The notes beneath the pieces were generated by a model that saw nothing but the letters and a program-made list of their open reading frames with translations, ran no database searches and was not told where the DNA came from. From Bacteroidota bacterium (GTDB taxonomy: Bacteria; Bacteroidota; Bacteroidia; Bacteroidales; UBA1556), in assembly GCA_003973505.1 (NCBI GenBank), contig QNXT01000273.1, positions 1 to 24,922 of the forward strand: a stretch of 24,922 bases of DNA, written 5' to 3'. The position numbers and the translations under genes were made by a program. Every line of letters begins with the position of its first letter. Within the stretch, counting starts at the first letter, position 1. Below, one piece after another: positions 16,937 through 21,443 of this stretch.

Positions 16937-18835
16937 TTAGTATGCACGTTCATTACGACCTTCGATGTAGTTGATAAAGGACTGATTTACCACCTTTACT
17001 CCACCTGGGGTTGGATATTTACCCGTAAAATACCAATCTCCACGATCATTTGGAATAGCATCATGTAAAGCCTCTATACTTTGGTAAATAATCTCCACTT
17101 CAGCAGAAATATCTTTCGGCGTAAGCAATTCACTAATTTTAGCCGACACTTGCTCGGCGGTAAAAGGTTCATATATTTCTCGTACCACATTCACCTGATC
17201 CTCTTTTGGTTTCTCAACCTCAACAAGGGCTTTCTTATAAACATCATTAATTACCGATTCCATATTCTTCTCTTTCAAGAGTGCAATAGCAGCTTGAAAA
17301 GCAATAAAGTCATTCAATTTTGCCATATCAATTCCATAGCAATCAGGATAACGAATTTGCGGAGCTGATGAAACCACTACAATCTTTTTAGGGTGTAGGC
17401 GGTCAAGAATACGAAGAATACTCTGTTTTAATGTAGTTCCTCGCACAATAGAATCATCAAGAATAACTAGTGTATCGACATAATCTTTTACCGCTCCGTA
17501 AGTAACGTCATACACATGAGCTACAAGATCGTCGCGTTGATTATCTTGAGTAATGAAAGTACGCATTTTCACATCTTTCACCGTAATCTTTTCGATACGA
17601 GGTTTTTTATTTAGGATTTCTTCAATTTCTTCAATACTTCCTTTACCATCAAGCTTAAGTATTTGATCACGCTTTACCTCGCTACAATAATCGGTCAAAG
17701 CCTCAGCCATTCCACGAAATGCTACAGAAGCCGTATTGGGTATATAAGAGAAAACCACATCTTTCAAATCGTGGCCTACCGACTTTAAAACCTGAGGCAC
17801 CAAATTGCGGCCTAATTTTTTTCGTTCTTTATAAATATCACAATCGGAACCTCTTGAAAAGTATATTCTCTCGAATGAACAAGACAAACGCTCTCGGGCT
17901 TTGTTAATCTCAACATGAGAAGTATCGCCATTCATTTTTACTATTAGAGCATGACCTGGAGCAATTTCTTTTACCGAATCGACAGGCACATTAAAGGCAG
18001 TTTGGATAACAGGTCGTTCTGATGCCGCAACAATAACCTCATCATCCTGATAGTAATAGGCTGGACGAATACCATTGGGGTCGCGAAGGATAAAGGCATC
18101 ACCATGACCAATCATTCCAGCCATTGCATAACCACCATCCCAACGTTTGGACGATCTTTTAAGAATTTCAACCAAATCCAACTCTTCGGCAATAATATCG
18201 GTCATCTTTCGCTTTGAAGCCTTATTCTTATTGGCCTGATAGATGCGATCCACATCCTCATCTAAAAAGTGACTAATTTTTTCGAGAATAGTAACAGTAT
18301 CTGAGGTTTCAATGGGATGCTGTCCTAATTCAATAAGATTCGCAAAAAGCTCATCCACATTGGTCAGATTGAAGTTACCGGCAACCACCAAATTACGTGT
18401 TTTCCAATTGTTATGACGAATAAAAGGATGTAAATAATGCACACTATTATCGCCAAATGTACCATATCGCAAATGACCAAGAAAAACTTCTCCTGTAAAA
18501 TGCGCATTCTTCTTCAGCCAATTAACATCGTTCAGAAGGTCTGGATTTTGCTCTTGTATATTACTATACTCATCATAAATCCTGGCAAATATATCTTTAA
18601 TTGGAGAACTATCTACAGAGCGAATACGATCGATGTACTTCATTCCTGGCTCGGTGTCAATCTTAATGTTTGCTATACCAGCTCCATCTTGACCCCGATT
18701 GTGCTGCTTTTCCATCAAGAGGTACATCTTATTTATTCCGTAGAAGCTTGTTCCGTACTTCTCACGATAATATTCAAGAGGTTTTAATAGTCGTACAAAT
18801 GCGATTCCGCACTCATGTTTAATCTGTTCACTCAT
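16937..18835 (-). CDS. PurF-like glutamine amidotransferase / phosphoribosyltransferase
   Basis: The family reaction is the first step of purine synthesis: glutamine plus PRPP gives phosphoribosylamine. The 632-residue product is about 130-160 residues longer than classical PurF. Cys9 (KHECGIAF) would be the N-terminal nucleophile after removal of an 8-residue propeptide. HNRGQDGAGI (45-54), HLRYGT (121-126) and RDPNGIRP (251-258) belong to the Ntn amidotransferase domain; VILDDSIVRGTTL (457-469) is an intact PRPP loop. The classical oxyanion segment NGNLTN reads NFNLTN here (Asn154, Phe155). Additional length lies at about 58-115 and 385-440. Bacteroidota carry such long paralogues beside ordinary PurF, so the exact reaction should be regarded as open. 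It is probably transcribed alone, from the promoter at 18872. Confidence 0.85.
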   Translation of the reverse strand: MSEQIKHECGIAFVRLLKPLEYYREKYGTSFYGINKMYLLMEKQHNRGQDGAGIANIKIDTEPGMKYIDRIRSVDSSPIKDIFARIYDEYSNIQEQNPDLLNDVNWLKKNAHFTGEVFLGHLRYGTFGDNSVHYLHPFIRHNNWKTRNLVVAGNFNLTNVDELFANLIELGQHPIETSDTVTILEKISHFLDEDVDRIYQANKNKASKRKMTDIIAEELDLVEILKRSSKRWDGGYAMAGMIGHGDAFILRDPNGIRPAYYYQDDEVIVAASERPVIQTAFNVPVDSVKEIAPGHALIVKMNGDTSHVEINKARERLSCSFERIYFSRGSDCDIYKERKKLGRNLVPQVLKSVGHDLKDVVFSYIPNTASVAFRGMAEALTDYCSEVKRDQILKLDGKGSIEEIEEILNKKPRIEKITVKDVKMRTFITQDNQRDDLVAHVYDVTYGAVKDYVDTLVILDDSIVRGTTLKQSILRILDRLHPKKIVVVSSAPQIRYPDCYGIDMAKLNDFIAFQAAIALLKEKNMESVINDVYKKALVEVEKPKEDQVNVVREIYEPFTAEQVSAKISELLTPKDISAEVEIIYQSIEALHDAIPNDRGDWYFTGKYPTPGGVKVVNQSFINYIEGRNERAY

Positions 18836-18871: not shown

Positions 18872-18879
18872 CAAAAATA
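18872..18879 (-). promoter_or_regulatory. Candidate promoter of the PurF-like gene
   Basis: TATTTTTG on the minus strand matches the -7 consensus, 36 bp before the start codon. No clear -33 TTTG is at the right distance. The nested palindrome begins 85 bp further upstream. Confidence 0.4.
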
Positions 18880-18960
18880 CATTTTTTTAAATGCATATTT
18901 TATATTTTTACACAAAATAAAATCTTATTCTCAAATCCACAATCAATTAAATTATCATTT

Positions 18961-19233
18961 TAATAACCTGAGTTCGACGTAAGATTTCACTCACAGAAAG
19001 TCAATAGCAGACCAGATTTGCTGCTAAATATCACGAAGTAATAGCGGGCTATTTCGAATGGTATTTAGTGCGAAGATGGTTTGCTATTGACTTTTTATAT
19101 AAATTTCGATAATTAGCCCATATACTTCCCCAAATATACTCGAATTATCTCGATAGTCCATCGTAAATTTGAGTCGTATATGAACTAATTATCTGAAACT
19201 GTGAGCAAAGCTTACATCGAACTCAGGTTAATA
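18961..19233. mobile_element. MITE-like nested palindromic element with TAATA flanks
   Basis: The sequence from 18964 to 19230 is one large imperfect palindrome without an open reading frame. The outer stem joins 18964-18996 and 19199-19230: the terminal 20 bp have one mismatch, then a small internal loop and CTCACAG/CTGTGAG. Directly inside it, arm 1 (18997-19094) is closed by an 18-position stem with 17 Watson-Crick pairs (AAAGTCAATAGCA...) and continues through CTAAATA/TATTTAG and ATAG/CTAT to a 4 nt loop. Arm 2 (19104-19198) is closed by TTTC-GATAATTAG-CATATAC paired with its complement. The result on paper is a three-way junction. TAATA at 18961-18965 and 19229-19233 could be a target duplication. 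No transposase is present. A structured RNA or attenuator is the alternative. Confidence 0.55.
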
Positions 19234-19256
19234 GCTAGATAATTAAAGAATTAAGC

Positions 19257-19288
19257 AATAAAAAAAGAGCCCCATAATGGAGCTCTTT
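19257..19288 (-). terminator. Terminator after the EF-G2 gene
   Basis: AAAGAGC (19264-19270) pairs with GCTCTTT (19282-19288), and an inner CCA/TGG pair extends the stem past one mismatch. On the minus strand it is followed by seven T residues and ATT. It lies 26 bp past the stop codon of the EF-G-like gene. Confidence 0.8.
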
Positions 19289-19313: not shown

Positions 19314-21443
19314 TTAATCTTCAGCTTCTTCCTCTTCGTATTTTTTAAGTAATTCTTTTTGCACATCGCTAGGTACTTGTTGGTATTCAGCATATTTCAT
19401 ACTAAACATACCACGTCCCGATGTCAACGAGCTTAAAGCGGTACTATAACGATTCATCTCGGCCAAAGGCACACGGGCATTAATCTGCTGCATATGTCCT
19501 TGAGCTTCCATTCCCATAATCATAGCACGACGTCCTTGAAGGTCAGTCATTACATTACCCATCATATCTTCTGGAACAAGTACAGTAACATCATAAATAG
19601 GCTCCATAATTTTTGGACCTGCATTTTTAAATGCAGTACTAAAAGCATGACGACCTGCTAATTTAAATGAAATTTCATTGGAATCAACTGGGTGCATTTT
19701 ACCATCATATACATATACAATGATATCGCGTGCATAAGAACCTGTTAAAGGACCTTCTTCCATACGCTCCATAATACCTTTTAAGATAGCTGGGAGGAAG
19801 CGCGTATCGATGGCTCCACCAACAATACAATTCTTGAAAATAAGTTTACCTCCCCAATCTAAATCATACTCATCAGTACCACGAACATTAAAATCACTAG
19901 GATCGGTATAGCCTTCTTCATAAGGTTTAATCAAAAGATGCACCTCTCCAAACTGACCGGATCCACCAGATTGTTTTTTATGGCGGTAATCAGCTTTGGC
20001 CGACTTGGTAATGGTTTCACGATAAGGAATTTTTGGTGTTTCGAAATGGAATGGAATCTTATACACTTTATCAAAATACCATTTTGCAACATTGATGTGC
20101 TGCTCACCCATACCTTCGATAATCAACTGTTTCAACTCACGTGAATAGCCTACTCTGAATGAAGGGTCACTTTTATGCATTTCGTTTAATACCAATCCCA
20201 TCTTTTCATCATCGCTGGAATTTTCAGCCTTGATGGCAGTACTATAAATTGGATCTGGGAATTGAATTGGATCCAAAACAACATCTTTATTAGCTGATGT
20301 TACCAAAGTTTGGTTACTATGTGTATCTTTTAACTTAATAGCGGCTCCAATATCTCCGGCACATATCTTGGCTACCTTTTCCCTTTTTTTACCCACACTT
20401 ACCAAAAGTTGTGAAAGACGCTCTTTATTTCCTGTATTGGAATTTATCAAGTCCATTCCTTCTTCCACATGACCTCCATACACACGGAAATAAGAAATCT
20501 CGCCCAAATGCGGTTCTACCTCTGTTTTGAAAACAAATAAAGTAGTAGGATCGTCAGGATTACTATTGTATTTTTTACCATCACTACCTTTACGGTAACG
20601 ACGTTTTGGAAGTGGAGCCGATTTATTGATAAATTCTAAAATACGACCCGCACCGATACATTCTTTTGCAGAAGTAATAAATACAGGGAAATAAGCACGA
20701 TTGGCAATTCCTAAACGAATACCTTCGCGTAATTGGTCGATGGTTAAGGTATCGTTTTCGAAATAAATCTCCATCAACTCTTCAGAACCTTCAGCGGCAG
20801 CTTCAATTAAAGCTTTTTCCAGTTCTTCGGCTTTGGCTTTCTCCGATTCAGGAATATCGGTAATCTCAGCATCACCACCTCCTTTTTTGTATTTGATTTG
20901 TTTCATATAAACCAAATCAATTACAGTATCAAAATCGGGACCCTGATTTACAGGATACTGCGCAATGGTAACTTTATCGCCAAAGGCAGTTTTCAATTGA
21001 CTCATGGTTTCATCAAAATTAGCCTTTTCATGATCTAATTTATTGATGATAAATACTGTAGGCGTATTTCGGCTAAGTGTGTTTCTCCAACCGATTTCCA
21101 CTCCCACATCTACACCCTCATGGGCATCAACCACTAAAAGAGCCGTGTCGGCTACACTAAGTCCAGTAGCTACTTCCCCCACATAGTCAGCAGTACCCGG
21201 AGTATCAATAATATTGATTTTTACTCCTTCATAAACCGTATGCAAAATTGTTGATACTACAGATTGTTCTTTATCTAATTCGATATCACGAAAATCTGAA
21301 ACAGTGTTCTTATCTTCAATTGTTCCACGGCGTTTAATAGATCCTCCTTCGAAAAGCATGGCCTCAGCCAGTGTGGTCTTTCCTGCTTTCGCCCCGCCAA
21401 CCAAGGCAATATTTTTAATTTCGTTGGCTTGAAAAATTTTCAT
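19314..21443 (-). CDS. Elongation factor G paralogue (EF-G2 type)
   Basis: The 709-residue product has all five EF-G domains: a G domain (about 1-290), a beta-barrel (about 300-390), domain III (about 400-475), domain IV (about 480-600, with SGGSGQFGEVHL) and domain V (about 605-690). The G motifs differ from canonical EF-G. The P-loop is GGAKAGKTTL (16-25). Switch I reads KEQSVVSTI in place of ERGITI. Switch II reads DTPGTADY, with Thr84 where the catalytic His normally stands; NKLD (134-137) is kept. This is not the housekeeping fusA. Bacteroides EF-G2 is described as supporting translation in starvation without GTP hydrolysis, which fits these changes, but equivalence is inferred. The gene stands alone, with an A/T-rich leader and a terminator. 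Confidence 0.9.
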   Translation of the reverse strand: MKIFQANEIKNIALVGGAKAGKTTLAEAMLFEGGSIKRRGTIEDKNTVSDFRDIELDKEQSVVSTILHTVYEGVKINIIDTPGTADYVGEVATGLSVADTALLVVDAHEGVDVGVEIGWRNTLSRNTPTVFIINKLDHEKANFDETMSQLKTAFGDKVTIAQYPVNQGPDFDTVIDLVYMKQIKYKKGGGDAEITDIPESEKAKAEELEKALIEAAAEGSEELMEIYFENDTLTIDQLREGIRLGIANRAYFPVFITSAKECIGAGRILEFINKSAPLPKRRYRKGSDGKKYNSNPDDPTTLFVFKTEVEPHLGEISYFRVYGGHVEEGMDLINSNTGNKERLSQLLVSVGKKREKVAKICAGDIGAAIKLKDTHSNQTLVTSANKDVVLDPIQFPDPIYSTAIKAENSSDDEKMGLVLNEMHKSDPSFRVGYSRELKQLIIEGMGEQHINVAKWYFDKVYKIPFHFETPKIPYRETITKSAKADYRHKKQSGGSGQFGEVHLLIKPYEEGYTDPSDFNVRGTDEYDLDWGGKLIFKNCIVGGAIDTRFLPAILKGIMERMEEGPLTGSYARDIIVYVYDGKMHPVDSNEISFKLAGRHAFSTAFKNAGPKIMEPIYDVTVLVPEDMMGNVMTDLQGRRAMIMGMEAQGHMQQINARVPLAEMNRYSTALSSLTSGRGMFSMKYAEYQQVPSDVQKELLKKYEEEEAED

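Follow-up and report, generated by a model that had tools for sequence, protein, structure and literature searches.

The window, the whole 24,922-nucleotide stretch of DNA that was analysed, belongs to Bacteroidota as judged from its genes, which include a Bacteroidota-type EF-G2 and a T9SS sorting domain. The gap between a purF-like gene (16937–18835, minus strand), whose product has only distant kin (best match 67% identity), and fusA2 (19314–21443, minus strand) hosts a 263-bp element that extends from 18966 to 19228. The initial annotation had described a nested palindrome at 18964–19230. The palindrome is real, although its ends were placed two bases too far out on each side: the predicted minimum free energy (MFE) of RNA from 18940–19260 is -119.4 kcal/mol, compared with -55.7 ± 4.4 kcal/mol for 100 dinucleotide shuffles (z -14.6), none of which is as stable. 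The MFE structure is a Y with a three-way junction closed by the pair 18996–19199, from which branches of 98 nt (18997–19094) and 95 nt (19104–19198) emanate, as expected from the arms of about 95–98 nt originally proposed. The closing pair directly adjoins both arms, in keeping with the proposed lack of unpaired bases between outer stem and arms, but the arms themselves do not abut each other as had been thought, because nine unpaired bases (19095–19103) separate them. Within the element 77% of bases are paired, which agrees with the earlier estimate of well over half, and no open reading frame of at least 80 amino acids overlaps it, again as annotated. The features of the element are as follows.

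18961–18965, no strand: left target-site duplication TAATA (sequence; flank-pair comparison)
18966–18983, plus strand: left terminal inverted repeat ACCTGAGTTCGACGTAAG (found twice in the window, 0 expected; IS982-family ends are the same or near-identical)
18966–18996, no strand: outer stem, left side (two outer helices with 94.5% and 92.7% of cells paired)
18997–19094, plus strand: arm 1, a hairpin that folds better on the plus strand (G.T 119 vs A.C 8; MFE lower on plus in 35/35 copies)
19014–19017, plus strand: 5′ half of the AGAT/AGAT internal loop, tandem G.A mismatches (alignment columns 51–54; one G to A in 25 rows)
19045–19048, plus strand: CGGG apical loop of arm 1 (closing pair, formed by columns 81 and 86, of four alternative types)
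19074–19077, plus strand: 3′ half of the AGAT/AGAT internal loop (columns 111–114, invariant in 25/25 rows)
19104–19198, minus strand: arm 2, a hairpin that folds better on the minus strand (G.T 12 vs A.C 47 read on plus; MFE lower on minus in 31/35 copies)
19149–19152, minus strand: apical loop of arm 2, CGAG in the window (columns 189–192; CGGG in 20/25 aligned copies on the minus strand)
19199–19228, no strand: outer stem, right side (MFE fold and alignment)
19211–19228, minus strand: right terminal inverted repeat ACCTGAGTTCGATGTAAG (window end-pattern search)
19229–19233, no strand: right target-site duplication TAATA (sequence; flank-pair comparison)

The palindrome had also been placed between a terminator and a promoter. 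A terminator-like site (19264–19288, minus strand) does adjoin the element, but a sigma-70 scan lists no promoter on the other side. A sequence that we take to be a Bacteroidota-like TANNTTTG promoter motif is readable at 18872–18879 on the minus strand. The same sigma-70 scan finds no recognisable promoter at the element, and a terminator scan of the window makes no terminator-like call within it. An Rfam search of the window gives nothing at the curated threshold except two tRNAs; at a relaxed threshold, a stretch of the window and four relatives give sub-threshold matches only.

The element is made up of inverted ends ACCTGAGTTCGAYGTAAG, a 5-bp TAATA target duplication and no gene. Beyond ACCTGAGTTCGACGTAAG and its inverted partner ACCTGAGTTCGATGTAAG, no further end match occurs in the window, even when three mismatches are allowed. 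Among 45 distinct flank pairs of the ACCTG end type, 31 have identical 5-bp duplications (10.2 are expected from flanks of different copies); the 45 take in some shortened copies and one element with the same ends and another interior (L210). The terminal inverted repeats are of the IS982 type, with an AC start and T at position 9. In the available part of the family description (PMC7335449), IS982 ends start with AC, follow the consensus AC(N)6T and are accompanied by direct repeats of 2–10 bp.

In genomes that belong to the same order as the window, transposase genes are found between the same or near-identical ends, which agree with those of the element over about 18 bp at most. The element L209 (genome G179) is 1041 bp long, has TAATA duplications and encodes a 299-residue transposase that matches the IS982 model NCBIfam NF033520 (E 5.7e-82). 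L190 (G422) carries a 253-residue ORF that matches the same model (6.9e-80) and has flanks without a 5-bp duplication, and L354 (G304) carries an open frame of 303 residues (E 3.1e-82), a TATTA duplication and ends with two and one mismatches to the element ends. In L352 (141–1178, G087) the IS982-type transposase frame is broken into two overlapping frames, which were searched as two pieces. Among relatives with ACCTG-ended copies that were checked for an autonomous partner, IS982 is present in G304 (open frame) and G087 (broken frame). It is also present in G179 and G588, and the copies read in these two genomes have AGGG ends. The MITE, one of three identities offered in the initial annotation, is borne out by its inverted repeats and target duplications, by the many copies found in relatives and by IS982-family elements that share its ends. 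That this sequence would be a non-autonomous MITE derived from IS982 is well supported, and IS982-derived MITEs are a kind of element already known.

Several related structures were observed alongside. A further IS982-type frame contains an internal TAG (L356, G444:C134:3790-4287) and, by its transposase domain and a single end, could be assigned to the type; this and the broken frame of L352 sit in genomes rich in element copies. Two elements are cut to little beyond two IS982-type ends, namely L177:1501-1554 (54 bp) and L202:1506-1538 (33 bp), the latter flanked by TATTA. The IS982-ended element L210:206-547 (G291; 342 bp) is flanked by TATTA duplications but differs in its interior, which includes a GC-rich hairpin. 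A further subfamily may be represented by L336:983-1299 (G359), where a variant type of end, beginning with AAGGCCACCTCTAATAATT, has its partner at a distance of about 317 bp.

The initial annotation would have regarded the palindrome as a local accident had it been single-copy in its genome, unconserved in relatives and untranscribed; in relatives, many copies were found. A DNA search of the genomes of 50 of the 80 purF-type loci gave matches at E ≤0.1 in 11, with strong matches only in G041 (Marinifilum flexuosum DSM 21950, locus L057), where 14 pieces match. In the family of G041, 11 of 56 genomes, G041 counted, match at E ≤0.01. Within the order, 27 of 393 genomes contain an exact match to TANTA followed by the end, whereas the reversed control pattern has none among the matches listed. 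The model matches 24 of 40 genomes at E ≤0.01, with a best E below 1e-15 in 20, in a set picked mostly for earlier hits and including weak matches in G154, G192, G454 and G068. The element is multi-copy in G041, G087, G088, G304, G324, G276 and others; G087 alone has 51 model matches counting both strands, which represent at least 48 distinct places. With stricter filters, a class sample yields 8 of 149 genomes (its centre G041 counted), all with best matches of at least 65 bits, and a phylum sample yields 2 of 148, its centre G046 and G683, where the isolated match (G683:C1:1488735-1488924; 34.5 bits, E 2.6e-4) is weak and within the range that ends alone give. The named hosts are M. flexuosum (G041) and a MAG labelled Flavobacteriaceae (G046). 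The element is thus patchy across Bacteroidia. BLAST found no match in plasmid or phage records with the window as query, in plasmids with L301 and L187, or in phages with L255. To look for an orthologous empty site, the 80 purF-type loci were searched for fusA2 by tblastn; none of them has a close fusA2 alongside (a distant 26% match lies in L061); the purF control of this search was found at 80 of 80. At 86 distinct insertion sites, where neighbouring genes were crudely approximated by long ORFs, the copies sit between genes that are tandem in 29 and 19 cases (one count for each orientation), convergent in 16, divergent in 10 and undetermined in 12, so that no clear orientation bias against neighbouring genes is seen.

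The fold is conserved between copies. Of 30 complete copies, 25 were aligned with MAFFT, leaving out two near duplicates (L124, L144), one copy with a deletion (L154) and two that align poorly (L195, L218); L198 and L214, which are also near duplicates, were kept. A structure of 99 pairs was derived by RNAalifold from 12 diverse rows, with one small hairpin between the arms removed. Over the 25 rows 90.5% of cells are paired, a figure that leans favourable because the structure was derived from the same sequences. Double changes are the stronger point: 68 pairs show change on both sides, and double-changed cells number 276, compared with 48–79 (and 33–48% of cells paired) when partners are slid by 1–3 columns, while 0 of 500 shuffles reach the observed value. 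Each arm behaves likewise in a separate MAFFT alignment with its own 22-pair RNAalifold structure, arm 1 (34 of 35 non-redundant copies, L296 being left out for its short arm) with 200 double-changed cells against 39–83 after sliding and arm 2 (35 of 35 copies) with 118 against 24–66. The pair that closes the apical loop of arm 1 takes all four Watson-Crick types (UA 11, AU 7, GC 5 and CG 2; n=25). Shuffles and slides served as the controls; the copies are related, so these counts are inflated by kinship and do not represent independent events. Pairing is maintained by compensatory change.

The loops are conserved too. AGAT occurs on both stem strands of arm 1 (19014–19017 and 19074–19077), which creates two adjacent G.A mismatches between A-U pairs. 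The AGAT/AGAT columns show one change in 25 rows and nearby pairs vary freely; in a deeper set the motif is lost or altered in several copies, e.g. L252, L262, L254, L297 and L298. The apical loop of arm 1 is mostly CGGG (22–24 of 25 per column), as is that of arm 2 on the bottom strand (20 of 25 at its single variable column); the arm 1 loop is variable among AGGG-ended copies. A kissing interaction of the apical loops was dismissed on visual inspection, as several copies have loops that cannot pair.

Palindromes can acquire apparent compensatory changes through template switching. The element could then be an ordinary IS982 MITE, its fold a functionless by-product of inverted duplication tidied by such palindrome correction. 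The firm MITE identity and the existence of other interiors between the same or similar ends speak for this explanation, and template switching would supply the apparent compensatory changes. Yet this process should not keep the AGAT/AGAT mismatch in 24 of 25 copies while flanking pairs change, nor should it give opposite wobble biases in the two arms next to a neutral outer stem, which is the pattern seen. In top-strand reading, the MAFFT alignment shows 119 G.T and 8 A.C cells in arm 1, 12 G.T and 47 A.C cells in arm 2, and 12 and 14 in the outer stem, which carries the ends (per-pair sign tests give p=3e-6, 0.031 and 1, respectively). The unbiased outer stem acts as an internal control for the asymmetry of the arms. 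The by-product explanation is accordingly rather unlikely in our judgement.

By the G.T/A.C pattern, each arm is a hairpin specific to one strand, the top one for arm 1 and the bottom one for arm 2, and both face inwards. Folding energies follow the same division. Among 35 non-redundant copies (selected greedily at <85% identity from 89 best-strand rows, themselves drawn from the best 150 of 169 matches in 91 sources), the MFE of arm 1 is lower on the top strand in every copy (35 of 35) and that of arm 2 is lower on the bottom strand in 31, with three opposite and one tie. Arm 2 has the weaker per-pair asymmetry, and in a model-fitted alignment, which was fitted to the top strand, arm 1 has 122 G.T and 14 A.C cells and arm 2, with 39 and 49, is near neutral. 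There is good support for selection on the arms in the form of a folded single strand, which is most likely RNA. The structured RNA, another of the identities first offered, thus gains covariation and strand-specific G.T tolerance in its favour, but it matches no Rfam family at the curated threshold.

The two arms may be related to each other. Twelve distinct elements (loci L187 and L230 being one copy) were compared with the arm-1 model R2, built with arms of the compared copies. It matches the bottom strand of arm 2 in nine of them at E ≤0.01 and in eleven at E ≤1, and no match is listed on the top strand of arm 2 in these 12. The cross-match scores are about the size of matches of arm 1 to its own complement, higher or lower depending on the element, and therefore suggest, short of proof, that arms 1 and 2 might be inverted relatives. 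Selection of the arms on opposite strands argues against a stand-alone small RNA gene that is mobile by chance, as does the lack of a recognisable promoter and, besides two tRNAs, of any Rfam match at the curated threshold; strong covariation is the property that such a gene would share, and we regard this explanation as very improbable.

DNA energy parameters also favour the modelled strand (34/34 and 34/35). Since the asymmetry is common to RNA and DNA parameters, these tests do not separate RNA from single-stranded DNA, and the arms could be single-stranded DNA or cruciform hairpins, recognised for example in transposition or on the lagging strand. The inward orientation of each arm from its end would suit such DNA hairpins, as would insertion between genes with no clear preference for one orientation. 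Against them stands the finding that the core travels between different ends.

A model built solely from ACCTG-ended copies also finds copies with AGGG-type ends (TCTAATAATT or similar). These unrelated AGGG...CCCT ends are flanked mostly by TTA and TAA, and the copies match with E values per genome down to 2.3e-24 (L298, G179) and, in the class sample, 1.8e-18 (L253, G511). A 2-bp repeat is present in 15 of 19 AGGG-type flank pairs (9.7 expected), which makes a TA duplication plausible, though not proven. In G511, a 1245-bp element with AGGG-type ends has two overlapping frames whose pieces match the IS5-family transposase model NF033581 (E 7.4e-58 and 1.5e-24), and the core is therefore carried by the ends of two transposase families, IS982 and IS5. 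IS630 was also considered as the carrier of AGGG ends and was rejected, with a hit in 2 of 8 genomes and one over the cut-off.

Conversely, ends occur without the core. The whole-element model R1 has no match in the IS elements L190, L209, L352, L354, L361 and L365; among elements whose ends are of the IS982 type, L210 and L094 are matched by none of the models R1, R2 and R3, L160 is matched by no arm model, and L201 has a recognisable arm 2 only. R1 takes in the ends, and the ends-only elements L160, L004 and L005 reach 26–36 bits (E 3.6e-4 to 3.4e-6), so R1 matches in that range do not show an interior. In IMG/VR, an 18-base end pattern retrieves six contigs, of which L004 and L005 score 34–36 bits with R1 and the remaining four no better than chance; the arm models find nothing in L004, and three further patterns retrieve no contig. 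By this sequence comparison, L004 and L005 appear to have their ends, and not their interior, in common with the element. Both represent a gene-free 163-bp version of another IMG/VR structure, L001:9824-11209, whose two inverted ACCTGAGTTCGA ends lie 1386 bp apart. The gene between them codes for a C-5 cytosine DNA methyltransferase (343 aa, PF00145) and not for a transposase, and no matching target duplication is seen.

Elements with IS982-type ends and no arms show that the arms are not needed for movement, and core and vehicle are separable. A core common to two transposase families is unlikely to be a transposase-specific site, arm-free IS982-ended elements exist, and DDE transposases are not known to require hairpins of this kind, all of which makes the single-stranded or cruciform DNA explanation unlikely. 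Exchange of vehicles also raises a broader possibility, that of a class-wide, transposase-independent RNA device, formed by the strand-specific hairpin pair and the tandem G.A loop, packaged between the ends of at least two IS families and kept because the folded RNA itself benefits the element or its host. The element would then be a selfish regulatory RNA that changes vehicles. We put this forward tentatively, as a conjecture with somewhat less than an even chance.

Inward-facing hairpins would meet read-through transcription from both sides, and in the window a T run (GACTTTTT) forms the end of arm 1. Both properties would be expected of a bidirectional terminator or an mRNA-stabilising element, REP-like in effect. 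The T run, however, is not kept in the AGGG-ended copies read, no terminator-like call falls inside the element, and insertions are not concentrated between convergent genes (16 convergent and 10 divergent sites; n=86). A role as terminator or stabiliser is therefore quite unlikely.

The account that we favour, and to which we give a slightly better than even chance, is that of an IS982 MITE mobilised in trans, whose interior consists of two inward hairpins that act at the RNA level. An IS982-family transposase, supplied in trans, would recognise the ACCTGAGTTCGA ends and insert the element into TANTA with duplication of 5 bp; comparison of ends and flanks supports both of these steps well. 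Read-through from either neighbouring gene, if it occurs, would produce the correctly folded arm first, and each arm, a hairpin with an internal loop, may be recognised by a host nuclease or RNA-binding protein. Such recognition could cut, cap or insulate read-through transcripts and limit polar effects, which would make insertions cheap for the host and allow a high copy number. One sense-folding arm per direction fits the neutral orientation of the insertions, because the first arm met is the folded one. MITEs are usually seen as decaying leftovers of transposons, whereas the interior of this MITE shows covariation, strand-specific wobble tolerance and a conserved loop. If the RNA interpretation is true, bacterial MITEs can bear selected RNA modules that act on incoming transcripts from both sides.

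NEMIS/Correia and ERIC sequences are intergenic MITE-like repeats, and hairpins in their transcripts can affect mRNA processing. The window element, likened to them by description only, differs in its two inward-facing hairpins on opposite strands, its conserved internal loop and its phylum. The literature searched, with incomplete coverage, yielded no account of the fold of the element. With the REP sequences, the third identity originally suggested, it shares the property of being a repeated extragenic palindrome, but a 263-bp unit with transposon ends and target duplications does not agree with the 20–40 bp palindromes of REPs (PMC3733652). For a MITE of P. gingivalis, no IS982 link is shown in the portion of PMC4596501 that was available. 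Likeness to the IS982 family lies in the AC-starting ends and the repeats of 2–10 bp given in the same available part of PMC7335449, and in the transposase that L209, L190 and L354 carry between ends identical or nearly so to those of the element; unlike these IS elements, the window element has no transposase, and R1 has no match in L190, L209, L352, L354 and L365. The closest known counterpart in kind is MITECca01 of Cardinium, also a member of Bacteroidota, an IS982-derived MITE some 240 bp long that is present in 169 copies (PMC9769881, in part). It resembles the window element in phylum, size, IS982-type ends, lack of a transposase and mostly intergenic location, and its high copy number resembles that of the window element in relatives. 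As presented in the accessible sections of PMC9769881, MITECca01 is lineage-specific and derived from its parent IS, and no conserved fold is reported there, whereas the fold of the window element spans many genomes and two kinds of ends.
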